From Peribacillus muralis (lineage in GTDB: Bacteria; Bacillota; Bacilli; Bacillales; DSM-1321), in the NCBI RefSeq assembly GCF_001645685.2, contig NZ_CP017080.1, forward strand, positions 4,641,051-4,705,050: a stretch of 64,000 bases of DNA. Direction: 5' to 3'. A program made the translations under genes and the position numbers. The notes beneath the pieces are model-generated. The model was not told the DNA's origin. It saw only the letters and a program-made list of their open reading frames with translations, and did not search any database. Shown one piece after another: positions 1,107 through 22,798 of the stretch; within the stretch, counting starts at the first letter, position 1, and every line of letters begins with the position of its first letter.

Positions 1107-1135
1107 AAAAAAAGCCTCCATCGAAGGATGAAGGC
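1107..1135 (-). terminator. Intrinsic terminator of the secA2-SLAP operon
   Basis: A 9-bp stem (arms 1114-1122 and 1127-1135, one G-T pair) with a GAAG loop is followed on the minus strand by seven T residues. It lies about 40 bp after the SLAP gene and ends the accessory Sec transcription unit before the LTA-synthase-like gene. Confidence 0.8.
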
Positions 1136-1173
1136 CATAAATCCTTGAATTTCACAGTCGTTTTTCCCTACAC

Positions 1174-1650
1174 TTACTTCCATCCAAATGCAATCTGCCA
1201 TTCCTCATCAGGGATCGATTCTGCTAAAATATCCCCTGCCTCGAATAAAAAACGCCATACTATACTTGAAAGTGCAGGTATCTCACCGAGCGATGAAAGG
1301 TCAAAAGCTTTTTTTGCCCATACACATCCATTTTCATCCACGATCATTATATCCACGATTTCAAACCGGATCGCTTTCTCCAATGAATTTCTTATAAATG
1401 CGACGATGATCACATCTTCCTCTTCCCTAGTAAGCTTCACCCCGGAAATCGAAATTTGATTGGGCTTTAACGCTGGCAGCTTTTGATGGTGGAACCTATA
1501 GACATACTCCTCTTGCTTCGTAATGTCGCAATCTCCATGGAACATTAAGGAAGTTCGAACAAATTCAGCCTGAACGTCATGTTCATTCGAAGCTGCAATG
1601 GCATTCCTCCCATTAATCCCTTTATCCCTTTTCCCAAAGAAACTCATCAT
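1174..1650 (-). CDS. SLAP-domain protein, accessory Sec system S-layer assembly protein-like
   Basis: A 158-residue soluble protein with no signal peptide. The body (about residues 25-155) has the beta-rich pattern of the Bacillus SLAP domain, including a conserved-looking SISGVKLTREEEDVIIVAFIR block and a C-terminal PDEEWQIAFGW. Its ATG overlaps the secA2 stop codon (ATGA), so the two are translationally coupled. In B. anthracis a SLAP-family protein works with SecA2 in S-layer protein export. This copy appears to hold a single SLAP unit, where as I recall the named S-layer assembly family is longer and duplicated. Function is inferred from family plus coupling to secA2. Confidence 0.75.
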   Translation of the reverse strand: MMSFFGKRDKGINGRNAIAASNEHDVQAEFVRTSLMFHGDCDITKQEEYVYRFHHQKLPALKPNQISISGVKLTREEEDVIIVAFIRNSLEKAIRFEIVDIMIVDENGCVWAKKAFDLSSLGEIPALSSIVWRFLFEAGDILAESIPDEEWQIAFGWK

Positions 1651-11539: not shown

Positions 11540-13546
11540 TTACTTCAAATACTTTTTCAAAACGGGCTTCATATGATCAATAACGACATGGCTGCCGCCC
11601 CTTCCTTTTACATCTTCAACCATCCAGGCCATGAGAAGTTCCGGATTTTCCGTGTCCATGGCTACAAACCAGCCATTTTCCGTTCCATCGGAATTTTTGG
11701 ATGCCTTGATTTCAGCCGTTCCCGTTTTGGCTGCGAATTTGATGCCAAGATCATTTATACCATGTCCGCTTCCCTTAGGATGTTCCACTACCTGTGTCAG
11801 CATTTTGGTGATCGTGTTCGCCTGCTCAGCAGTTATGGCATTTTTCTTCCATATTTCCTTTTCTTTTTTATCTCCTGTCAGCAACGTCGGCTTGACGATG
11901 TTCCCTTCATTTAAGAAGGCTGAGTACGTCATGGCCAGATGAAGCGTGCTCATTTGGACCTGTGCCTGACCATATCCGGCGTCAGCCAAGCGACCTTCAC
12001 TGTCGATTTTTCCAATGCTCGATGCTTTGATCGGATAATCGTAGTTCAATGGTTCATCAAAACCAAATGCTTTCAGTCCGCTTGTGAATTTTTCCTTACC
12101 AAGCCCCAATGCTTTCTGGGCAAAATAAATATTATCAGAATAAATTAACGCTTTCTCCATATCGATGGCGACGCCCGGGTCAGAGACCCTTGTTATGGAA
12201 TGGTCTTTCCATGTGGATTTAGCCCACGTTTTCCCCTGGATGCTGATTGCCTCGTTCGGATCGACTCCATTTTTCAAGGCGATTGCTGCCGTAAGGGCCT
12301 TGATCGTCGAGCCTGGTGCGAAGGTCGAACTGAAACGATTAAGCAGCGGCTTCCGGGAATCTTCCTCCAGCGCTTTTTGCTCTTCCTTTGTTATCCCCAA
12401 AATATATTTATTGGGGTCGAATGAAGGACTTGATACGAGTGCAAGCGTTTCGCCCGTTTTTGGTTCAAGAGCCGTTGCTGAACCAACTTCGTTCTTATAT
12501 TGCTCGAAAATATCTTTTTGAAGCTCCGCGTCGATGGTTAATGTAATGGTTTCTCCCTCTTCGGCAGGCTTTTCAGCAATCACTTTTTCTTCGCCAGCTT
12601 CTGTTTTAATATAGATCTTGCCTCCTGGCTTTCCTTTCAAGCGTCCTTCCAAAACTTCCTCAAGGCCACGCTTGCCAATAACGTCGCTTGCGGTATACCC
12701 TTTACCTTGCAATTTCTCCAAATCTTCGGCAGATGCCTCACCGACATATCCAATCAAATGGGCCGTAGCTTCTTTGTAAGGATAAATCCGGGCTTCCGTA
12801 TTATTGACTGACACCCCAGGAATGGCCAAAAGCTTTTCCAATGCTGCAGTATTGTCACTCGACATTTTCTTGATTGGCACAAAATAACCTGGTTTCACCC
12901 AAGATTGCTTTAACTTCCCATTAAGCTCGTCAGTGGACATATTGAGCATTCCAGCGACCTTTTTGACCGTTTCGGTTTCGCTTGTCATTTTCTCCGGCAC
13001 AATCCCCACTTCGGAGACTGTTCCATTCATGGCAAGACCGCGCTCGTTCCGGTCGACAATTTCCCCGCGGACGGCCGGATATGTTTGAACCGATATCTTT
13101 TCACCAGCTTTTAACTGTGGGAATATGTAGCTTTCATTCCATTTGATGTACCAATTCTCCTCATCACCCTCGCCTTCCTTGACAAGGGTAGCTTGATGCT
13201 CAGAACTGACTGCCCCTGCCATCGTCGACAAATCAACGGTATAAGCAAGGTTCACTTTTTCTCCATCTTTATGCTTTTTTTCTTCTTTAGGCTGTTTATA
13301 ATCCACTTTTAGGCGGTCGACCTCTATGCCCTTATAGATTTTTTCATAACGCTTCGCAAATTCATCCGCGCTAATTTCCTTCTTCGTTTCAGGTGACAGA
13401 TATTCATACATTTTTGTGAAATCCTGTTTATTCCAAAGCTTGGTGTATGCCGCAAAGCGCTCTTCCGGGCTTGGCTCATCAGTACAGCCGGCCAGGAACA
13501 GTACGCTCATCAACAATAAGCTGGAAACTAAAGCTAGTTTCTTCAT
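11540..13546 (-). CDS. pbpC: Penicillin-binding protein 3, class B lipoprotein transpeptidase
   Basis: A 668-residue monofunctional DD-transpeptidase. It has a lipoprotein signal (LFLAGC, Cys21), an NTF2-like MecA N-terminal domain (about 25-145), a dimerisation domain (about 155-300) and a transpeptidase domain with STIK (Ser413-Lys416), SDN (470-472) and KTG (607-609). This is the layout of B. subtilis PBP3 and of staphylococcal PBP2a. It cross-links peptidoglycan outside the membrane, and family members often have low beta-lactam affinity. Start: ATG after a TTAGGAGGAA site. It is a single-gene unit with its own terminator. Confidence 0.9.
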   Translation of the reverse strand: MKKLALVSSLLLMSVLFLAGCTDEPSPEERFAAYTKLWNKQDFTKMYEYLSPETKKEISADEFAKRYEKIYKGIEVDRLKVDYKQPKEEKKHKDGEKVNLAYTVDLSTMAGAVSSEHQATLVKEGEGDEENWYIKWNESYIFPQLKAGEKISVQTYPAVRGEIVDRNERGLAMNGTVSEVGIVPEKMTSETETVKKVAGMLNMSTDELNGKLKQSWVKPGYFVPIKKMSSDNTAALEKLLAIPGVSVNNTEARIYPYKEATAHLIGYVGEASAEDLEKLQGKGYTASDVIGKRGLEEVLEGRLKGKPGGKIYIKTEAGEEKVIAEKPAEEGETITLTIDAELQKDIFEQYKNEVGSATALEPKTGETLALVSSPSFDPNKYILGITKEEQKALEEDSRKPLLNRFSSTFAPGSTIKALTAAIALKNGVDPNEAISIQGKTWAKSTWKDHSITRVSDPGVAIDMEKALIYSDNIYFAQKALGLGKEKFTSGLKAFGFDEPLNYDYPIKASSIGKIDSEGRLADAGYGQAQVQMSTLHLAMTYSAFLNEGNIVKPTLLTGDKKEKEIWKKNAITAEQANTITKMLTQVVEHPKGSGHGINDLGIKFAAKTGTAEIKASKNSDGTENGWFVAMDTENPELLMAWMVEDVKGRGGSHVVIDHMKPVLKKYLK

Positions 13547-13890
13547 AAGTTCCTCCTAATAAATAGTTAGAATGATATACGTATAGTTTATCAAAATATT
13601 AGAGGAATGGGGAAATATGTATGAACATTTTCTTCATTTTGCTACTTTATCATTTTTTTGCTGAAGCAAAAGTCCTGTACACCAAGACCATGCCCAGAAT
13701 ATAGAAAACCTACAGGCCTATCTATATATCTTAAACCCCCGCACAAAAAAAAGGACTGAAACGTGCTCAGTACAGGTAATCCAAACTTTGGAAAATTGGA
13801 AAGAAGCATTTAAATGCAAAAACAAAAAACCGCAGACCCCTTTCATCTTCAAGGTTGTCTGCAGTTTGAATCCTGAACCTGAAATCAGGG
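13547..13890. promoter_or_regulatory. Intergenic region: pbpC promoter side and terminator of the CorA-like gene
   Basis: The 344-bp gap holds the pbpC upstream region (right of 13546) and a terminator at 13824-13865. A short plus-strand frame from 13788 runs through that terminator and into the neighbouring gene, and is not credible. I see no other gene. Confidence 0.5.
13824..13865 (-). terminator. Terminator of the CorA-like gene
   Basis: A 9-bp stem (13829-13837 with 13857-13865) with a long, partly paired loop is followed on the minus strand by a T-rich tract. It lies about 25 bp past the stop codon. Confidence 0.75.
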
Positions 13891-15330
13891 CTATAGCATT
13901 CTTTTTTTGCGGCTTTTTTTCTCATGAAACCATTTCTTCAAGAAGAAAAATCCTAAAACGGATGAAATGATAAGCCCGCTTGTCGTCACGAATACAGCTA
14001 CCCATTCATACAAGGTATAATCCATATACGTTTTCCAAGGTAATCTTTTCTTCCAATCCTCAATGTAAAGATTCATCCCGAATATTCCTGAAACGACCGT
14101 ATAAATCGTTAAGATCTGCAAGAGATAATTACTGCTCTTGCCAGATAGTTTATCCTGATTCTGATAAAGGTAAGAAAGCGTTTCTTTCACCTCTTTATAA
14201 AGAGGAGCAATCCTAAAGGTTTCATCCGTTATTTTGAATAGCTCCTTGCCAGCCGCCGTGCTGTTAACTTCAGTGAATAAATACTTGGTAGTAAACTCCG
14301 TGATCATGAAGATCAGTTGTTCCGTATTGGACTGATCCTTTTCGATATCAATTTGGGAGTGCTCATGAACCAACTTGAGCAGCACAATTTTATAATAGAA
14401 GAACAGCAATATGGAATAAAAGTTTTGGCCGTACATTTCATTTGCCAATTGCAATTCCAGCTTCCCTTTCGCTTTCGTGACACAAGCGAATTGGTACATG
14501 CTTGTTACATAAAAGGTTTCCTCGCCCCACCTGTCATACACCCGCTTCTGATAATACTTATCAATATAAGCAGGGTTCAAGGCGCCGATGTATGGTTCTC
14601 CATCATTGTCGTATCCATTCAGTTCACTGGCCCGGAATAAATCTTCTTTACTGATGACACGATCCTCGGGGAATGCAATATAGCTGACGACATACATTCT
14701 TTCGTCGATAAAGAAGGGTAAGCTGCCGAAATAAGAGGGATCCGTCTGTCCTTCATCAATATATTGCTCCATGGGCGGCAAGAGTTCGTTAAAGATGAAA
14801 TCCTTCACTTGTTCATAATGATTTTTCCTGCAGCCGACTTTTGTTTTCCGTTCATCTTCAGCAATCGGTTCAAGGATTCGAAAGGTATCGGCAAAATAAA
14901 GCACATCATTATACGAAAGGCCTTCAGGCAATGTAACACGCAGATTCATCATGCCAATATGAAATGGGCATATGAAGATATCGATAGAATTAATAATGAA
15001 TGAGGTAGTTAAAAAGGGGGATTCGAAGTTGCAATCAATATCGAGCTTTTTTGTAAAACGCCGCAATCCTTCTTTTTCCTTCAAATTCGCTGGAAAAAGT
15101 ATCGGCTCGATGTAGGGCATGAAATACTTTTCCAAATTACGGTGTGAAATCTTATGCTCTCCGTAATATTGGCCTTGCTGGTCCATATCTCTTAAATTCA
15201 AGAAAGCGAAATTGTCTTCAAGCAACTTATCAACAAACGATTCGATCTTTTTCCCTTCAAGCGCGAACGGAAAGAGGTACTGCTGGAAACTTCGCTTCGT
15301 ATGATCATTTTTTTCTAGCTTAATTTCCAT
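13891..15330 (-). CDS. Divergent CorA-like (2-TM-GMN) membrane protein
   Basis: A 479-residue protein with a large cytoplasmic N-terminal part (about 1-400, no motif I recognise), then two C-terminal membrane helices (about 402-422 and 442-464) and a basic tail. Helix 1 ends in VVSGIFGMN (GMN at 418-420), the selectivity motif of CorA-type Mg2+/divalent cation channels. The loop between the helices is about 20 residues and lacks the usual MPE sequence, and the protein is longer than CorA (about 315 residues). Cation transport is therefore inferred only from helix layout and GMN. ATG has a GGAGG site. A terminator-like hairpin lies on the same strand 125 bp upstream. Confidence 0.55.
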   Translation of the reverse strand: MEIKLEKNDHTKRSFQQYLFPFALEGKKIESFVDKLLEDNFAFLNLRDMDQQGQYYGEHKISHRNLEKYFMPYIEPILFPANLKEKEGLRRFTKKLDIDCNFESPFLTTSFIINSIDIFICPFHIGMMNLRVTLPEGLSYNDVLYFADTFRILEPIAEDERKTKVGCRKNHYEQVKDFIFNELLPPMEQYIDEGQTDPSYFGSLPFFIDERMYVVSYIAFPEDRVISKEDLFRASELNGYDNDGEPYIGALNPAYIDKYYQKRVYDRWGEETFYVTSMYQFACVTKAKGKLELQLANEMYGQNFYSILLFFYYKIVLLKLVHEHSQIDIEKDQSNTEQLIFMITEFTTKYLFTEVNSTAAGKELFKITDETFRIAPLYKEVKETLSYLYQNQDKLSGKSSNYLLQILTIYTVVSGIFGMNLYIEDWKKRLPWKTYMDYTLYEWVAVFVTTSGLIISSVLGFFFLKKWFHEKKSRKKRML

Positions 15331-15454
15331 GATTATATTCCTCCGATTAACCTGGGATGTTCTAAGTTCACTTCACCTTGTTTCTTATGTTTACCCAAGT
15401 ATACGTAAACAAAACGGAACATATTATAGAAATGAATTGGACAATTACCATAAG

Positions 15455-15484
15455 AAAAAAATCCCCCAAGCAAACGCTCGGGGG
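15455..15484 (-). terminator. Intrinsic terminator upstream of the CorA-like gene (candidate attenuator)
   Basis: A GC-rich stem (15463-15471 with 15476-15484, one mismatch), an AAAC loop and seven T residues on the minus strand. No minus-strand gene ends here. It sits 125 bp before the CorA-like start on the same strand. Confidence 0.8.
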
Positions 15485-15572
15485 CCATCGAAAAGGGCTC
15501 TTCAACCCTCTTCACTTTAGGGTACTAGAAACTGATGTTTCTAATGAAAAATCCGATATTCGGACCATTTTA
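15485..15572 (-). promoter_or_regulatory. Possible structured leader/attenuator or small RNA before the CorA-like gene
   Basis: On the minus strand an extended -10 (TGC then TAAAAT, 15567-15572) would start a transcript near 15560. It contains a 7-bp hairpin (15526-15532 with 15537-15543) and a second one (15505-15509 with 15519-15523), and then runs into the terminator at 15455-15484. The arrangement is that of a riboswitch-type attenuator for the downstream membrane protein, or a free-standing small RNA of about 100 nt. I do not recognise a known class; the Mg2+ M-box core is not evident. Confidence 0.4.
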
Positions 15573-15792
15573 GCATGTATTTTCAATATGATAAAACACC
15601 GAATACATTCATATTTGGCCTTCTCACCTTATTAACGGCTAATTAAGCAGTATAAACAGGAACTGGCAAATGAATTTATAACTATAGGAATAATGATCAT
15701 TCTTTCTTTTGTCAGCTTAGCCTCTTTGAGAAATCATGTTTTATAAAGGCGGAAAGGGGTAAATGAAAAAAAAGCAAAGGAGAGACACCCCC

Positions 15793-15939
15793 ATGAAATC
15801 CGATAGCAATAAGCAAGCCTTGAAATGTATTAAAAGAACACATGGTTCAAAACCAACTGAACGAAAACAGATGAGCGATTTCATTAAAAAAATGAAAATG
15901 AATCATCAAAATTCTCATTTAAAAGGTAAAAACTCATGA
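15793..15939 (+). CDS. Small basic hypothetical protein (48 aa)
   Basis: A short gene with a GGAGAG ribosome site eight bases before its ATG. The product is 48 residues, strongly basic (Lys/Arg/His-rich) with no hydrophobic segment and one Cys. Its TGA lies inside the left arm of a perfect 10-bp terminator hairpin, which argues that it is a real expressed unit. I do not recognise a family. It converges on the hypothetical gene at 15968. Confidence 0.6.
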   Translation: MKSDSNKQALKCIKRTHGSKPTERKQMSDFIKKMKMNHQNSHLKGKNS

Positions 15940-15962
15940 CATAATGGAAGGTCATGAGTTTT
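15931..15962 (+). terminator. Bidirectional terminator shared by two convergent small genes
   Basis: A perfect 10-bp inverted repeat (AACTCATGAC with GTCATGAGTT) has T residues on the right for the plus strand and A residues on the left for the minus strand. It overlaps the stop codon of the 48-residue gene. Confidence 0.85.
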
Positions 15963-15967
15963 TGCGA

Positions 15968-16285
15968 TTAAAATGCGATTTCTTTTCCCTGCAGGTTTTG
16001 CCTCACACATTTCTTGATACCGATTACATCCAGAAAATGTTGAATTTTCTTCATGGACGTTGCCTGATATTCATCAACGATGGAGAATTCTTTAATATAA
16101 GCGATTTTTTCTTGTACATCTGTATCTATATGATCTTGGTTGGATTCTTTTCCATTTGATTTTTTGCATGTGTACACTACAGCCTCACCAATTTTCCTGG
16201 TCGCCTTATCAAAATAAAAAGAAAACACAATGGCACATTCATCATCATAAAAAGAGGGTTGAACTTTCATATTAATATCAAGCAT
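15968..16285 (-). CDS. Hypothetical cytoplasmic protein (105 aa)
   Basis: A 105-residue protein translated from an ATG with a strong AAGGAGAGAGG site. It has no signal peptide or membrane helix. The N-terminal half looks like alternating beta strands (VQPSFYDDECAIVFSFYFD, IGEAVVYTC) and the C-terminal part helical. I do not recognise a family. It ends just before the shared hairpin at 15931-15962. Base composition is AT-rich like the neighbouring peptide-regulator locus. Confidence 0.6.
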   Translation of the reverse strand: MLDINMKVQPSFYDDECAIVFSFYFDKATRKIGEAVVYTCKKSNGKESNQDHIDTDVQEKIAYIKEFSIVDEYQATSMKKIQHFLDVIGIKKCVRQNLQGKEIAF

Positions 16286-16464
16286 TAATTTACACCTCTC
16301 TCCTTTTTGTTATCTACACTATAACAAAATTCGTAAAGGTAAATGGGTGTTCCAAACCACACTCCCGCTTCCTCTGCACCCACCAAATGGACCTTATATC
16401 CCCCATGCATGGATAATTATAACTACAGGAATATGCGCAAAAGAATAACCATTGAAGTTAGGCC

Positions 16465-16492
16465 AAAAAAAGACACTCCCTTTAGGAAGTGT
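16465..16492 (-). terminator. Terminator of the PapR-like peptide gene
   Basis: An 8-bp stem (16473-16480 with 16485-16492, one wobble) has a TTTA loop and is followed by seven T residues on the minus strand. It lies 20 bp past the stop codon of the 42-residue peptide gene and supports that gene as a discrete transcript. Confidence 0.85.
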
Positions 16493-16511
16493 GTATGATA
16501 CATTAGTTATT

Positions 16512-16640
16512 TTATGCTTTAGTGAATACTGAAGGTAATTCAAAAACGCTTGGCAATTCATGTGGTGTAACGCCACCTACTAATACGATAGCAGTTACTA
16601 AAAGAAAGGATACCGCGATTCCCTTAAAATTTTTCTTCAT
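16512..16640 (-). CDS. PapR-like secreted signalling peptide precursor with tandem ELPSVF repeat
   Basis: A 42-residue gene: ATG at 16640 with an AAGGAGGAAG ribosome site, TAA at 16512, then a terminator. The product has a basic N-terminus (MKKNFK), a hydrophobic export signal (about residues 8-23) and a short tail containing HELPSVFELPSVF, a perfect tandem hexapeptide (28-33 and 34-39), then TKA. Precursors of RRNPP pheromones have this layout, and the repeat fits the acid-Leu-Pro-x-x-Phe pattern of the PapR heptapeptide (ADLPFEF). It lies 197 bp from, and divergent to, a PlcR-type regulator. Expected route: Sec export, proteolysis, re-import by an oligopeptide permease, binding to the regulator. 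The mature form is not known. Confidence 0.8.
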   Translation of the reverse strand: MKKNFKGIAVSFLLVTAIVLVGGVTPHELPSVFELPSVFTKA

Positions 16641-16677
16641 AGGTACTTCCTCCTTAATTTTATTAAAAATATTGGTT

Positions 16678-16724
16678 ATAATAGAAATAAATTCTATAGT
16701 TGTATTTAACCATACTTTTGGTAT
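16678..16724. promoter_or_regulatory. Candidate peptide-gene promoter and shared operator dyad
   Basis: On the minus strand a -10 of TATTAT (16678-16683) has only a weak -35 about 17 bp upstream, as expected for an activator-dependent promoter. Just upstream of it is an inverted repeat ATAC-N5-GTAT (16712-16724), located between this promoter and the regulator's own. It does not match the strict PlcR box TATGNAN4TNCATA. Assignment as the regulator's site is inference. Confidence 0.4.
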
Positions 16725-16731
16725 AACAGTT

Positions 16732-16760
16732 TTGGCTATTCTGATAACGAGATTTATATT
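16732..16760 (+). promoter_or_regulatory. Candidate sigma-A promoter of the PlcR-like regulator gene
   Basis: TTGGCT (16732-16737), a 17-bp spacer and TATATT (16755-16760) lie about 78 bp before the regulator start. The dyad at 16712-16724 is directly upstream, so the regulator could control both divergent promoters from one site. Confidence 0.5.
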
Positions 16761-16837
16761 ACAAAGGGTAAATTCTATTTTATACTTCTATTTTCCACTA
16801 AAAATATAACTCTAGGAATATTTTAAGGAGAGTTAAC

Positions 16838-17731
16838 ATGGATTTCTTTGCAGTAGGAAAAAAAATAAAAGAACTTAGAAAACAAATTGGTCTTTCTCAA
16901 GAAGAACTTTCAGAAGGCATTTGCACTCAAGCCCAAATCAGTAAAATTGAAAAAGGCGATGTCTATCCATATGCGACTACTCTTTACTTAATTTCTAAAA
17001 GGTTAGGTGTCGATGTGAATTACTTTTTCGACATCGGTATGACACCTAGATTGGATTATGTGCAAGAGGTTTCCCACCAGTTAAAAATCGCCCGAAGAAC
17101 AATGAACTATCAAGAAATGAAGGAAATTGTTAGAACGGAAGAAAAAAATCCTTTATTTACTCAAAATAAACAAAATCACCAATTACTCATATGGCATAAA
17201 GGCATATATGAGTACATGATGAATAAAAATCTCGATAAAGCCATTCAGTATCTCGAAGAAGCGATTGCTTTATCAGATTTAACGGACAAGGTTTACTCTG
17301 AGCGGGAAATTGAATATTTAATTAGTATGGGCGTTATATATTTTGAAGAGAAGCTCTATGAAAAGGCCCGATATATTGATAATTTGGCTCTTACTCATCT
17401 AAACCACTTACCCTTTTTGAATGATAAAACGATAAAAACAAGATTATTTTATAATTCTGCCAGGGTTTCTACACGCTTGGAGGATTATAATGCATCCATT
17501 GCCTACTGTAAGGAAGCCATCAAGTGGTGCTTACAGGAAGATCACTTGTATCTATTAGGGGAGTTACATTATCATCTAGGTTATAACTATGAATTGCAGA
17601 CAGATTATAAAAATGCTAAAAAGTGCATGGAACGAGCCCGATTGATCTTTGATTTACAAAAAGAAAAACGATTTGTTACTTTTATTGATGAAAAATTCAA
17701 AGCTTGGGAAATCAATTTAAAAATTCATTAA
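16838..17731 (+). CDS. PlcR-like RRNPP transcriptional regulator (HTH plus TPR)
   Basis: A 297-residue cytoplasmic regulator. Residues about 5-60 form an XRE-type helix-turn-helix (GKKIKELRKQIGLSQEELSE, then QAQISKIEKGDVYP). Residues about 75-290 are helical TPR-like repeats (DKAIQYLEEAIALS, YNASIAYCKEAIKWC, YKNAKKCMERARLIF). Length and layout match PlcR (285 residues), which is activated by re-imported PapR. ATG follows AAGGAGAG. It is divergent from a 42-residue PapR-like precursor, whereas papR in B. cereus lies downstream of plcR on the same strand. Target genes are not evident here. The family call is good; PlcR orthology is not proven. Confidence 0.85.
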   Translation: MDFFAVGKKIKELRKQIGLSQEELSEGICTQAQISKIEKGDVYPYATTLYLISKRLGVDVNYFFDIGMTPRLDYVQEVSHQLKIARRTMNYQEMKEIVRTEEKNPLFTQNKQNHQLLIWHKGIYEYMMNKNLDKAIQYLEEAIALSDLTDKVYSEREIEYLISMGVIYFEEKLYEKARYIDNLALTHLNHLPFLNDKTIKTRLFYNSARVSTRLEDYNASIAYCKEAIKWCLQEDHLYLLGELHYHLGYNYELQTDYKNAKKCMERARLIFDLQKEKRFVTFIDEKFKAWEINLKIH

Positions 17732-17736
17732 GAAAA

Positions 17737-17763
17737 AGCCATTCCTACTGGAATGGCTCTTTC
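17737..17763 (+). terminator. Terminator of the PlcR-like gene
   Basis: A perfect 9-bp stem (17737-17745 with 17750-17758) with a TACT loop is followed by CTTT. It begins six bases after the stop codon. Confidence 0.75.
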
Positions 17764-17858
17764 CATTCGCCAGGAATATATATAATTTGACACTGATCAT
17801 TTCCAAAACCTCTATTCTACATTTCAAATTCCAAGCCAAAATGAAGTATAATAAAAAG

Positions 17859-18003
17859 ATGCTTCAAAAAGGCATCTGCCCTCAACATTTAGTTTCGTAT
17901 AAAGATGATGATGGTTTTGAGGCCCCGTTAATGTAAATGTCCATCATTACCCTATAGAGGCCTTTATATCCGTTACGCACCGCTTATATTCAGGGCGGTT
18001 TTT
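17859..18003 (+). ncRNA. Candidate small RNA in the plcR-like/ywqB intergenic region
   Basis: A TATAAT box at 17847-17852 would start a transcript near 17859. It would contain a 6-bp hairpin (17857-17862 with 17872-17877), a 7-bp stem (17908-17914 with 17941-17947), a near-palindrome centred on AGGCCT around 17952-17967, and a terminator (17979-17983 with 17995-17999, then five T). The predicted length is about 145 nt. A 31-codon frame runs through the start but has no ribosome site. The -35 is poor. I do not recognise an RNA family. The remaining 200 bp to ywqB look empty except for the ribosome site GGAGGAG. Confidence 0.4.
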
Positions 18004-18207
18004 GACGATATTGACTTTTATGGAAGTTAAATGAAAACTGGTCTTGTTGTTTTGAATGAACTTGTTCGTTTATATGGGGATAAGATGGAAATTGGTATGT
18101 AAAGCTATACATGCAGGCATGAATACAATTGTCAATGCACTGATCATGCATGGATCAGGCAAAAATATAATCTTGTTAAACAGGGGTAAACCCTGAAGGA
18201 GGAGAGT

Positions 18208-19833
18208 ATGGAGCGGGAGTTGTTGTTAGTTGGGGAGCGGCTGGGCGAATTTTTGGAGGCCGATAATCCAGATGATTCGGACGTGGTGAATCAAGGGCTC
18301 CATTTATACCGTCAGGGGCTTGTTGAAATTAAAGAAGAAGCGGCCGATACGATAGCGGCCGAGGTACAGGATGTAACGCGCCATAAGGCCAGGCTGAATC
18401 TCCTCTTCCCTCAAGAGGGCAGCTGCACATGTGAGTCAAGATTCATTTGCCGGCATCAAATGGCCGTTTTCTTTTCAGCGTTCTCCGAACACGCGAGTGT
18501 TTCCGATTGGCTGAGCGAATGGAAAGCACCAAAACTGGAATCGCCTTCCCAGGCGCTGCAGCAAGTGAAACGTGCAAGTGAGTTACTGAAACAAGCGGAG
18601 GAGAAATCCATCATTTTAGATAAAAGCTATCCATCATGGAAGCAATTCGTGAACGTCACCTTCTCGGAGCATGTCGAACCTCATATTGGCGAACCAAACT
18701 ATATGATGGAAAACCATATACAAACATACTTTAAACGCCTTAGCTCCAAGGCTCCCATGGAAAGGGAGTGGAAACTGCTCTACCAGTTCGTTACGCAATT
18801 TTGCACGATGCAGCTGACACTCAAAATGATTCAGCTACATACAAGCCAGACACACACGATCAGGGTCTTTTATGCAATCGCCGTCGACCTGGCGGAAGAA
18901 TTGCATGAAACAGTACAGCCGCTTAGCCGGCAAGCGAGACCATTTGCCTTTGATCCCTTCGTTTTCAGCATCAAGGAAGATGTTGCTAAGCTTTTGGATG
19001 GAGTATTCGGTCTTGAATATGAAAAAATCGATCTCTACAGGGAAATTTGGACCTATTTATTCTCCAACTCCTCTTGGCGCAGAGAAGAGCTGGAACGAAT
19101 CAAAGAAGAGCTTCCAGACAAGTATATGGGCACGACTGAGAGAACGTCCTATTCCCTCGCAGCCATTCACCTATCCCTTCTGGAGAATCAAGATAAACAG
19201 GCCTTTGAGCTTCTCCATGAATTAAAGAAGGAAGCCTGTCCATATATTTTCTATTGGCTGAATCTCCTGGCTGAATCAGATAACCGTTCACGCGGCATCC
19301 CATTCATTGAATTCATCATCGCCAATGTCCAGGAATTCCTCGCAGATCTATCCGATTATTATCAGCGGGTAGACTTCGTAAGGACCTTTACGACTGTGAT
19401 CAGCAGCTACTGTCATAAATTGAAACGAATGGACTTACTGGAGAAATTTTACAGAGCCTCCCTTCCTCACAGCTATTGGAACTATGCTAATTTTCTTTTT
19501 GAACAAGGACAATACAAAAAATGGGTGGAAATGCATATTTACTCTGAAATCAGCATTGATTTAATCAGCAGTGAGTCCATCAAAGAAGTAGTCTCTAAAG
19601 AGCCGGAGCTAATCCTGCCCCTTTACTACCATGCGGTACAGGAAAAGGTTTCGTTAAAAAACAGACCTGCCTATAAGCAAGCTGTCCGATATTTAAAGAA
19701 GATGCGCACCATTTATAAAAAGACCAAAAGGGAAGACATATTTGAACGCTATATATTATATGTTGCCGATTCAACTAAACGGCTTCGCGCTTTCCAAGAA
19801 GAATTAAAAAGGGGTAAGCTTATCGATGTTTAA
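18208..19833 (+). CDS. ywqB: SWIM zinc-finger protein YwqB
   Basis: A 541-residue cytoplasmic protein with a SWIM zinc finger near the N-terminus (CxCx5CxH: Cys73, Cys75, Cys81, His83). The rest is helical without other motifs I recognise. SWIM proteins of this type are encoded next to SNF2 helicases and probably assist DNA or protein binding by the partner. The stop overlaps the start of ywqA by 8 bp, so the pair is translationally coupled. ATG has a strong GGAGGAG site. Confidence 0.85.
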   Translation: MERELLLVGERLGEFLEADNPDDSDVVNQGLHLYRQGLVEIKEEAADTIAAEVQDVTRHKARLNLLFPQEGSCTCESRFICRHQMAVFFSAFSEHASVSDWLSEWKAPKLESPSQALQQVKRASELLKQAEEKSIILDKSYPSWKQFVNVTFSEHVEPHIGEPNYMMENHIQTYFKRLSSKAPMEREWKLLYQFVTQFCTMQLTLKMIQLHTSQTHTIRVFYAIAVDLAEELHETVQPLSRQARPFAFDPFVFSIKEDVAKLLDGVFGLEYEKIDLYREIWTYLFSNSSWRREELERIKEELPDKYMGTTERTSYSLAAIHLSLLENQDKQAFELLHELKKEACPYIFYWLNLLAESDNRSRGIPFIEFIIANVQEFLADLSDYYQRVDFVRTFTTVISSYCHKLKRMDLLEKFYRASLPHSYWNYANFLFEQGQYKKWVEMHIYSEISIDLISSESIKEVVSKEPELILPLYYHAVQEKVSLKNRPAYKQAVRYLKKMRTIYKKTKREDIFERYILYVADSTKRLRAFQEELKRGKLIDV

Positions 19834-22798
19834 TCCAGGGAAATTAAAAATAAAAATAGCGGCTCTCGAAAACGGAGCCTACGCCCTTGGTGTCGTCAAC
19901 GAGGACCAGGCCTTCCTTAACACGAATCATATACGCCGGCTGCTCTTCAATTGGGATGACGCAAGCTTTTATGGCACGAAAATGACTACGGATACCATGG
20001 ATGGCAATCCTGTTTTCATTCTTGATGCGTGGGGGCTTCTCAACTTTTTTGCGAAGGAGAGCTTCAACTCCTTCATAGAATGGGAATGGTCCGAGATTTC
20101 TTCCCTTTGCCTGTCAGCTGCGCCCGTTCTTCATGAATCCATCGAGGAGGGCATCCCGGTACCCGATTTCACCAATTTGCAGCTTGACGCCATTGGCTGG
20201 AAGCTCCCGGAAGAAGTCGAGGAGGAATTCGTCCCTTCATTTTGGGAAGAAAGCATCGCATTGGATCTCCCTTCGCCTGAAGCGGAAACCAATCGGTCAT
20301 TCATCGAAAAGTGGTATAACGGTGCCGCTAACATGTATTTAAGGAATTATTCACCTATGCATCATAAATGGAGCGAAGCCATCGGGGCATTAAGTGATTC
20401 GAGACTATCGCCCGAAGAATTGCAGGCCTTTTTTGATAAAGAAAGCTGGCAGGAATGGCTCGGAACAAAGCCAGATCCGAAACCCTTCACCATTGGCCTG
20501 CGGTTAACGGAACCACCTGACGGCAATGGACCCTGGATACTCGACGTAACCCTTCGTTCCAAAAGGGATGAGAATATCGTCGAAACCTATACCGGAAAAA
20601 AACTGCCGCGCGGCTGGAACAAGTATGCGAGCGAAGTCGTGCGGGCCACGAAACGCTGGCAGCTCGTCGTGCCCTGGTTAGGAGAAAATGGACGGCTAAA
20701 AAGGGAGATTTCGGAAACGGACGCATGGGAGTTCTTGACGGATGCAAGTGAAAAACTTCTGTTCCTTGGCGTCGAAATCCTCCTTCCATCCTGGTGGCTT
20801 GCCTTGAAGGAGTCCTCCTTGAAGGTGAAGGCCAAAGTAAAGAGCCAATCGAACCGCGGTCCTTCATACGTAGGTTTGAAAGCTTTGATGGATTTTGATT
20901 GGCGCTTCTCATTAAATGGCAAGGAGCTCAGCGAGGCGGAGTTCGCGGAGCTCGTCGACCAAAAAAGACGGCTCGTCTTCATCCGCGGTCAATGGGTCAA
21001 GCTGGACCCGGCTTTCATTAAGCAAATTCAGGTGCTGATGGAAACGGCTAATGAAAAGGGGCTACAGCTGTCAGACTTACTGCAGCAGGAATTATTGAAT
21101 GGCAAAAATGAAACTGAGGATATCGATTCTGAAAATGATGATATGCTCCGAATTCAATTTGAATTGAATCAGGAGCTCCGTAAGATGATAGGAAGGCTCA
21201 GGGAAGCTAAAAACATTTCCATCCTTCCCGTTCCCGATGAACTGCAAGGTGACCTGCGCCCCTATCAAAAGCTGGGCATGAGCTGGCTGCTTTTTTTAAG
21301 GGAGCATGGCTTTGGTGCTTGCCTTGCGGATGATATGGGGCTGGGGAAAACGGTCCAGATGATTGCCTACCTGCTTCATGTCAAAAACAACGAAGGGGCA
21401 GGTAAAGAGCTGCCCATCACATCCAATGATGAGCAAACGAGTGAAACGATCATCGTCGAAGAGGAAATCGGCAGAGCGGAGAGTGTAGCGGAAGATATCA
21501 TTGCACCCACTCTGGAACCCGTTTCCGTACAATCAGCGCTCATCGTCTGCCCTACTTCGGTCCTTGGCAACTGGCAGAAGGAATTGGAAAAATTTGCACC
21601 GACCCTTAAGGTCCACCTGCATTACGGTTCTAATCGATCAAAAGGCGAGGACTTTGCCAAGAAAGCTGCACAGCACGATATTGTGTTAACCTCCTATGGC
21701 CTGACGCATCAAGATGTCGTTGAACTGTCCTCCATTCAATGGAGCAGCGTCATCCTTGATGAAGCACAAAATATCAAGAATGCCCAAACCAAGCAATCCA
21801 AGGCGGTCCGCAAGCTCAATGGCCGGCATCATATCGCTTTATCAGGTACGCCGATGGAAAACCGCTTAAGTGAGCTATGGGCGATTTTCGACTTCATTAA
21901 CAAAGGCTATCTCGGAACGCTGGCCCAGTTTCAGGAAAAATATGTGGCCACCATCGAACGGGATGAACAAAAAGATAAAATCAAGGAATTACAGCGTTTA
22001 ATACAGCCGTTCCTGCTCCGTCGTACAAAACGGGATAAAGATGTCGCACTCAATCTTCCCGATAAGCAGGAGCAGAAGGAATTCGTCCCGCTTACCACCG
22101 AGCAAGCATCGTTGTATGAACAACTGATCAAGGATACCTTCACCGATATTGAACAGCTGTCAGCCTTTGAGCGAAAAGGCATCATCCTGCAGATGCTGAA
22201 CAAGCTAAAGCAGCTTTGTAATCACCCTGCTCTTTATTTAAAAGAGCTTGATAAGGAAAACATCATGAAAGCGGCGAATCGATCGGGCAAACTCGAGAAG
22301 CTTACCGAGCTTGTCGATGCCGTCCGCGAACAGGATGAAAGCTGTCTCATTTTCACGCAATATATCGGGATGGGCAACATGATGAAGGAATTGCTGGAAA
22401 AACGTTACAACATCGAAGTTCCATTCCTGAACGGGAGTGCCAACAAGAAGCAACGTGATGAAATGATTACACGATTCCAAGATGGAGAATTCCCTATATT
22501 CATTCTCTCATTGAAGGCTGGCGGCACCGGCCTTAATCTAACAGAAGCAAACCACGTGATACATTATGATCGCTGGTGGAACCCGGCTGTCGAGAATCAA
22601 GCCACCGATCGCGCTTACCGAATTGGACAGCAACGATTCGTTCATGTTCATAAGCTGATCTGTACAGGGACCCTGGAAGAAAAAATCGATCAAATGCTAG
22701 ATAAAAAGCAAGCATTGAACGACGAAATCATTAGCAGCGACAACTGGATCACCGAGCTTTCCACAGAGGAAATCAAGGATCTTGTCGCTCTTCAATAA
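19826..22798 (+). CDS. ywqA: SNF2-family DNA-dependent ATPase/helicase YwqA
   Basis: A 990-residue protein. The N-terminal half (about 1-450) is the bacterial SNF2-associated region. The motor domains follow: ADDMGLGKTVQ (501-511, Walker A), LDEAQNIKN (644-652, Walker B), SGTPMENRLSELW, and the second half with SLKAGGTGLNL and DRWWNPAVENQATDRAYRIGQ. An acidic insertion of about 45 residues sits between motif I and Ia (about 522-566). These ATPases translocate on DNA; the bacterial physiological role is poorly defined. It forms an operon with ywqB and ends in a strong terminator. Confidence 0.9.
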   Translation: MFNPGKLKIKIAALENGAYALGVVNEDQAFLNTNHIRRLLFNWDDASFYGTKMTTDTMDGNPVFILDAWGLLNFFAKESFNSFIEWEWSEISSLCLSAAPVLHESIEEGIPVPDFTNLQLDAIGWKLPEEVEEEFVPSFWEESIALDLPSPEAETNRSFIEKWYNGAANMYLRNYSPMHHKWSEAIGALSDSRLSPEELQAFFDKESWQEWLGTKPDPKPFTIGLRLTEPPDGNGPWILDVTLRSKRDENIVETYTGKKLPRGWNKYASEVVRATKRWQLVVPWLGENGRLKREISETDAWEFLTDASEKLLFLGVEILLPSWWLALKESSLKVKAKVKSQSNRGPSYVGLKALMDFDWRFSLNGKELSEAEFAELVDQKRRLVFIRGQWVKLDPAFIKQIQVLMETANEKGLQLSDLLQQELLNGKNETEDIDSENDDMLRIQFELNQELRKMIGRLREAKNISILPVPDELQGDLRPYQKLGMSWLLFLREHGFGACLADDMGLGKTVQMIAYLLHVKNNEGAGKELPITSNDEQTSETIIVEEEIGRAESVAEDIIAPTLEPVSVQSALIVCPTSVLGNWQKELEKFAPTLKVHLHYGSNRSKGEDFAKKAAQHDIVLTSYGLTHQDVVELSSIQWSSVILDEAQNIKNAQTKQSKAVRKLNGRHHIALSGTPMENRLSELWAIFDFINKGYLGTLAQFQEKYVATIERDEQKDKIKELQRLIQPFLLRRTKRDKDVALNLPDKQEQKEFVPLTTEQASLYEQLIKDTFTDIEQLSAFERKGIILQMLNKLKQLCNHPALYLKELDKENIMKAANRSGKLEKLTELVDAVREQDESCLIFTQYIGMGNMMKELLEKRYNIEVPFLNGSANKKQRDEMITRFQDGEFPIFILSLKAGGTGLNLTEANHVIHYDRWWNPAVENQATDRAYRIGQQRFVHVHKLICTGTLEEKIDQMLDKKQALNDEIISSDNWITELSTEEIKDLVALQ

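Follow-up and report, generated by a model that had tools for sequence, protein, structure and literature searches.

A probable PlcR-PapR-like quorum-sensing locus of divergent layout in Peribacillus muralis, with a predicted regulon that includes a small RNA

In the PlcR-PapR system papR lies downstream of plcR on the same strand, and the PlcR box is TATGNANNNNTNCATA. PlcR activates; PrgX represses by DNA looping. Rap proteins lack an HTH and act on proteins, and aimX of the arbitrium system is a small, partly non-coding transcript. In agr-RNAIII, peptide quorum sensing has an RNA effector and is encoded in a compact divergent locus, the receptor being of the two-component type and the peptide cyclic.

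Excerpts of published accounts supply further detail on these systems. PapR pentapeptides fall into the classes LPFE(F/Y), VP(F/Y)E(F/Y), MPFEF and LPFEH, with ADLPFEF as the heptapeptide (PMC5007282, excerpt). AimR activates aimX, and its operator consists of 6-bp repeats with a 25-bp spacer (PMC9232636, excerpt). The Rap3T and Rap105 Rap-Phr systems have several pheromone copies per propeptide (PMC11343458, excerpt), and tandem pheromone copies are already known for such systems. A list of 34 RRNPP clusters includes a column for orientation (PMC10075063, excerpt), and our comparison between what is known and what is new also draws on excerpts of PMC12700828 and PMC7376267.

The window, by which we mean the whole 64,000-nucleotide stretch, C1:4641051-4705050, of the Peribacillus muralis genome that was analysed, contains a locus that, judging from its sequence, is likely to be a PlcR-PapR-like (RRNPP) quorum-sensing system with a divergent layout and a predicted regulon that includes a small RNA. 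The regulator gene and the proposed precursor gene have start codons 197 bp apart, and the features of this pair are as follows.

16838..17731, + strand: PlcR-like HTH-TPR regulator, 297 aa, likely pheromone receptor (Pfam, PDB sequence match, AF2 fold)
17737..17758, + strand: terminator-like hairpin 3' of the regulator gene (terminator scan)
16512..16640, - strand: gene of a predicted pheromone precursor (42 aa), oriented divergently to the regulator gene (ORF, translation, 66 of 81 loci)
16542..16559, - strand: pheromone copy 1, ELPSVF (translation; differences to copy 2 all synonymous)
16524..16541, - strand: pheromone copy 2, ELPSVF, then TKA (translation; synonymous differences)
16473..16492, - strand: terminator-like hairpin of the peptide gene (terminator scan)

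The regulator has the N-terminal HTH and C-terminal TPR peptide-binding domain of an RRNPP receptor, as judged from Pfam, the AF2 model and the fold match. Both HTH_3 and RNPP_C (PF18768) score above their curated Pfam cut-offs, the latter with 40.2 bits against a cut-off of 26.5. Among known receptors the PDB sequence matches place PlcR closest; 2qfc matches residues 6-276 with an E-value of 1.9e-12, and PlcR is the only near-full-length match at E<=0.001, the other three covering the HTH only. The best fold matches of the AF2 model (pLDDT 88.9) are likewise PlcR; aligned by fold, the regulator and 2qfc are 21% identical. Among named relatives the closest, with 96% identity, comes from Peribacillus muralis, and a search of the window's own genome (5.0 Mb) found no full-length paralogue. 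Between 15300 and 17900 there are seven terminator-like sites, against 1.5 expected from shuffles. Downstream of the regulator, at 18208-22798 on the + strand, lie a SWIM-like gene and an SNF2-type helicase gene (by eye), and a first gene of the SWIM-like type also stands 3' of the regulator in several relatives.

The precursor protein is MKKNFKGIAVSFLLVTAIVLVGGVTPHELPSVFELPSVFTKA, its C-terminal tail is HELPSVFELPSVFTKA, and AAGGAGG stands upstream of its gene. We compared 81 loci, namely the window and 80 named relatives of the regulator (the best 80 of 119 confirmed), which are not independent samples. A script searched the minus strand for ORFs that start 150-260 bp before the regulator, begin basic-hydrophobic and have an acidic-P tail. 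In 66 of the loci it detected a divergent precursor with a [DE]LPxx[F/Y/H/L]-type tail, starting at -159 to -228 bp from the regulator (at -180 to -205 in 64 of the 66). These loci have the adjacent small secreted propeptide with a C-terminal signal that is characteristic of RRNPP systems, export being predicted from charge and hydrophobicity only, and ELPSVF and its relatives have the L-P-x-x-F/Y/H frame of PapR peptides. Counted by a [DEV]LP pattern, 39 of the 66 precursors carry one copy, 20 carry two, one carries three, one carries four and four carry five; the precursor of locus L073 scores zero by this pattern, yet has three DPLPPVY units.

The two ELPSVF copies in the window differ at 7 of 18 nucleotides and at none of 6 residues. 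Over 33 comparisons of copies within precursors, made on distinct arrays and restricted to repeat units of the form [DE]LPxx[FYHL], 115 of 594 nucleotides differ and no amino acids do. That tandem copies show only synonymous differences is strong evidence for selection on the repeated peptide. No precursor family was found in Pfam (E<=0.1) or in NCBIfam. The window precursor does not stop at the repeat but runs on to TKA, so that extra trimming would be needed, and a search of the protein collection with the precursor gave no candidate. Both points would suit a translated small ORF with some role other than that of a pheromone, such as a peptide that stays in the membrane or is secreted and merely shares the promoter region with the regulator. 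We consider this very improbable, given the purely synonymous divergence of the copies, the PapR-like peptide frame (PMC5007282, excerpt), the steady pairing of the precursor with a PlcR-type receptor, and the tail variation, which falls mostly after the LP core (26 of the 27 variants listed begin with ELP).

A preliminary description of this DNA had proposed a divergent RRNPP quorum-sensing pair, consisting of a 297-residue HTH-TPR regulator and, 197 bp away on the opposite strand, a 42-residue gene with its own ribosome site, a terminator and two pheromone copies of the form acid-Leu-Pro-x-x-Phe. The regulator's coordinates and domains (ORF, Pfam HTH_3/RNPP_C) and the small gene (ORF and translation) are exactly as described there; AAGGAGG and the terminator-like hairpin at 16492-16473 (-) correspond to the proposed signals, and the two copies are the ELPSVF units given above. 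The tail is conserved in most regulator-bearing relatives, and its occurrence in 66 of 81 loci, together with PlcR as the best match of the regulator, supports the proposed pair.

The aligned intergenic DNA contains two conserved islands, e2 and e1, with little conservation between them. Island e2, AAAATATAACTNTAGGMATATTTT, lies directly before the regulator ribosome site, and island e1, TRTGNTTWAATA, is on the peptide strand. The corresponding features in the window, with further copies of the box and the gene next to one of them, are these.

16801..16824, + strand: box in the regulator promoter, AAAATATAACTCTAGGAATATTTT, with its 16-mer core at 16805-16820 (37.4 bits in the window)
16703..16714, - strand: promoter element of the peptide gene, TATGGTTAAATA, extended -10-like (fixed distance from box)
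16414..16437, + strand: weak copy of the box, TAATTATAACTACAGGAATATGCG, before the GNAT-like gene; 13.6 bits (box matrix)
15673..15696, + strand: copy of the box, AATTTATAACTATAGGAATAATGA, before the small RNA gene; 22.5 bits (box matrix)
15968..16285, - strand: 105-aa protein of no known family, putative GNAT-like fold

The box core is present at the regulator promoter in 74 of the 80 relatives, as 38 distinct 24-mers; a strict e2 was not found there in six of the 81 loci (L047, L061, L082, L085, L110 and L112). Spacing between e1 and e2 is 100 bp in 16 loci, 101 bp in 55 and 102 bp in 3, which accounts for all 74 loci that passed; L074, where e1 matches at 9 of 12 positions against a cut-off of 10, was left out of this count. 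The e1 consensus was drawn from these very loci, so that the match scores of e1 depend on them; the spacing is a quantity distinct from those scores. A matrix built from the 38 distinct e2 sites gives three sites of at least 9 bits in the window, at 16801 (37.4), 15673 (22.5) and 16414 (13.6), all on the + strand. Many relatives have a second copy similar to that at 16414, roughly between -400 and -760, and no second site at 9.5 bits was found in 14 of the 80. The box has the core TATAACTNTARGMATA and has only the outer TAT-N10-ATA in common with the PlcR box. The acetyl-CoA loop of GNAT acetyltransferases is Q/R-x-x-G-x-G/A; the 105-aa protein lacks it and has EYQATSMKK instead (by eye, from the alignment).

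Summed by hand over 43 family genomes, the exact core has 90 occurrences (0-4 per genome), against 10 of its reversed control (0-1 per genome). The core's three positions in the window's own genome are 15677 and 16805 of the window and C1:1387619 (-), the last of them 5' of an operon whose genes, judged by eye from their translations, resemble oppD, oppF, oppB and oppC. A whole-genome scan allowing up to 3 mismatches gave 17 matches and its reversed control also 17; two matches besides e2 fell within 1.2 kb of the locus. Since the loose scan does not rise above its control, only exact-core or clustered sites count, and a genome-wide regulon drawn from the loose search was ruled out. Beside the remote box, 19 of 20 fetched stretches (L132-L150) have the Opp neighbourhood and one (L151) has a different gene. 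Across 18 aligned stretches, 15 of the 16 columns of the Opp box are invariant against a mean of 7.0, in a region that is generally conserved, 16 of 545 windows being equally invariant and partly overlapping the box. No exact remote core is listed in genomes such as G005, G009-G012, G014, G022, G025 and G026.

By comparison, the peptide gene, the GNAT-like gene, the small RNA and the Opp operon each have a box copy 95-105 bp from their promoter. Distances were counted between the 5' base of the core and the first position of the -10 hexamer, with promoter patterns sought only 70-120 bp from the box; in the window genome the distance is 96 bp for the peptide gene, 95 bp for the GNAT-like gene (hexamer TTGTTATAGT, from the weak box), 105 bp for the small RNA and 104-105 bp for opp. 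Ten cases in other genomes lie at 94 or 105-106 bp. All 14 cases fall at 94-96 or 104-106 bp, two classes one helical turn apart, which suggests that the regulator, which probably binds the box, must sit on one face of the helix relative to its target promoters. Fixed spacing with one-turn steps would also suit a variant of the proposed system in which the regulator represses by DNA looping between box and promoter and the peptide relieves this, and extended -10-like promoters may need no activator. We regard this variant as possible and put it forward tentatively, for fixed spacing suits activation equally and the closest fold of the regulator is PlcR, which binds DNA only with PapR (PMC5007282, excerpt).

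The third element of the locus, a predicted small RNA, lies about 1 kb outside the coordinates of the preliminary description.

15455..15560, - strand: hairpin-bearing small RNA, about 105 nt long from an inferred 5' end (covariation, folding, family occurrence)
15484-15463, - strand: terminator hairpin ending the small RNA (hairpin prediction)
15567..15594, - strand: small-RNA promoter TTATCA-16-TAAAAT, with TG before the -10 (promoter scan)

The promoter is weak on the scan alone, which gave 12 sites against 10.6 expected from shuffles. In relatives an ATGNTWAAAT-type element stands near the RNA at a fixed distance from the box, and the distance from box to -10 is 105 bp in 15 of 16 loci and 104 bp in one. 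In an alignment of 15 sequences, both partners have changed in 9 of 24 pairs (mean 6.3 in shuffles, 14 of 500 of which reach 9) and in 34 cells (11.5 in shuffles, 0 of 500 reaching 34). Of the cells, 89.6% are paired, and sliding gives no more than 56.7%. The folding z-score is -4.55. Helix 1, which is 76.4% paired with zero compensatory changes, is not claimed as proven. A protein-coding gene was rejected as an explanation of this stretch; length changes between relatives break the common frame and the sole shared ATG is lost (by eye). Rfam gave three matches at E<=1 in window 13000-19000, all below gathering: NsiR1, which overlaps the small RNA at 15455-15508 (22.1 bits against a gathering threshold of 39, E 0.54), SurA at 17729-17977 (22.9 against 100) and mir-3145 (23.9 against 98). 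In six loci there was no Rfam match at gathering. CU-rich stretches of the RNA could, by inference only, pair with ribosome sites.

A covariance model found the small RNA in 40 of the 43 family genomes, once in 39 and twice in G014, and the three genomes without it (G002, G003 and G036) are exactly the three without the regulator (E<=1e-30). In 38 of the 40 it lies at most 1,855 bp from a regulator gene on the same contig. Regulator and RNA occupy different contigs in G027 and G035, yet a 26.5-bit box still accompanies the RNA there at 106 bp, an arrangement that speaks for regulation in trans. G037-G042 have the RNA in direct divergence, at 261-292 bp, from a paralogous regulator 46-52% identical, with no peptide gene between the two; their box, at 105-106 bp, reads TATAATTATATGAATA in three genomes and departs further in the other three. 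A search of 249 genomes of the order with RNA model R2 found the RNA in 8, all of family f1 and none outside it. RNA model R1 gave 12 matches at E<=1 in 69 further loci; in Cytobacillus there was one weak match (L055, E 0.14), and in the Rossellomorea loci, of 12.9 kb or less each, none.

Behind the small RNA, starting about 125 bp after its terminator, lies a 479-aa gene (13891-15330, -). Its product matches nothing in Pfam at E<=0.1, but towards its end it resembles CorA-type transporters in having an FGMN motif and hydrophobic stretches. A related GMN-motif gene (by eye) is found 3' of the RNA in many inspected loci, and its 5' region could work by read-through; on this view the quorum-sensing pair would be genuine, and the RNA would be only an attenuator leader of the membrane-protein gene and no member of the regulon, with the box coincidental or serving a neighbour. 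This seems unlikely to us, as the RNA persists without the GMN-motif gene in three fetched stretches (L154, L157, L161), other genes stand between the two in four (L155, L156, L158, L159), presence of the RNA tracks the regulator across the 43 family genomes, and its box spacing is fixed at 104-106 bp. From the variety of genes 3' of it, the RNA is probably not simply a leader, and we prefer to see it as a predicted target of the regulator. The genes between RNA and GMN-motif gene in L158 and L159 resemble a pair of AbrB-type antitoxin and Doc-type toxin (by eye).

The script found no divergent precursor in 15 of the 81 loci. In L040 the precursor frame is interrupted in an A-run. Seven Niallia-type loci (L087, L094, L095, L097, L102, L106, L107) retain the regulator, the box and the promoter element. 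In place of the pheromone gene, on the minus strand at about -150 to -350 from the regulator, they have some 190 nt of conserved, transcript-like sequence that includes a terminator and in which no start codon was seen. Structure of this Niallia-type RNA is weakly supported: both partners have changed in 3 of 40 predicted pairs, and the covariation term is +0.33. In the same seven loci a LysM-type protein gene (by eye) lies 3' of the regulator. LP-tailed candidates occur in other positions in L061, L103, L109, L110 and L112, and no pheromone candidate was seen in L082 or L085. The candidate of Cytobacillus horneckiae (L109), at -733 to -532 (+) from the regulator start, has six GLPTQH units, and the regulator frame there is split in two; that of Bacillus sp. 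FJAT-14578 (L112), at 1116-1248 (+) from the regulator start, has the tail RLPNQH, and a further candidate in L167, at 1360-1240 (-), has the tail YDLPNQH. Cytobacillus firmus (L051, L055) has a second, paralogous PlcR-like regulator about 1.9 kb upstream, facing an RNA whose 3' part has CTCCAANTTTNTTNCCG-like sequence in common with the Niallia-type RNA.

If the locus works as we propose, the precursor would leave the cell through Sec, be trimmed to about ELPSVF or HELPSVF, re-enter through Opp and bind in the TPR groove of the regulator. The regulator would then bind the box and switch the phased promoters, by activation or by loop repression. Such a switch would give feedback on signal and uptake and would also control the small RNA, which may act on other mRNAs. 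More broadly, we lean slightly towards the view that small RNAs are a recurrent output of PlcR-branch RRNPP receptors in the Bacillaceae, the receptor facing a pheromone or an RNA gene across the same phased promoter (box and extended -10, at 95/105 bp), and that Peribacillus has signal, uptake and RNA under a single receptor. Nature provides, in these relatives, a set of receptors paired with peptides (27 tail variants, in 1-5 copies) and with DNA boxes, mostly from environmental bacilli, which suits tests of pheromone specificity, of the reason for the repeats and of the fixed-distance action of a PlcR-type regulator.

The box, the phasing, the small RNA and the receptor family were not found in our searches of the open-licence literature, where the peptide words gave an unrelated match only; the receptor-propeptide pair may be in the supplementary tables of PMC10075063. 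As in the excerpted account of AimR-AimP-AimX, an RRNPP receptor and a peptide here appear to control a linked third gene, but the arbitrium systems are phage-borne and their receptor has a longer TPR domain, whereas this locus is chromosomal and PlcR-like. Tandem Rap-Phr pheromones likewise come as multiple copies in one propeptide, and the peptide differs. The closest likeness is to PlcR-PapR of the Bacillus cereus group, which also has a short precursor with a P-x-x-[F/Y/H] signal (PMC5007282, excerpt). The HTH and TPR receptor with the same predicted fold and the 16-bp TAT-N10-ATA geometry of the box are further features in common. Unlike PlcR-PapR, the locus described here has its precursor divergent from the regulator rather than downstream on the same strand, with 1-5 copies of the signal; the box letters differ, the box lies 95-105 bp from promoters, and a small RNA and Opp are among the predicted targets. 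In combining a peptide signal with an RNA output it resembles agr-RNAIII, sequence comparison in this case being the Rfam scan alone. Should the broader reading hold, this would be a quorum-sensing circuit that runs from peptide to RNA, comparable to agr-RNAIII but based on an intracellular TPR receptor, and if the RNA is indeed a target, intracellular peptide receptors would join agr in acting via RNA.
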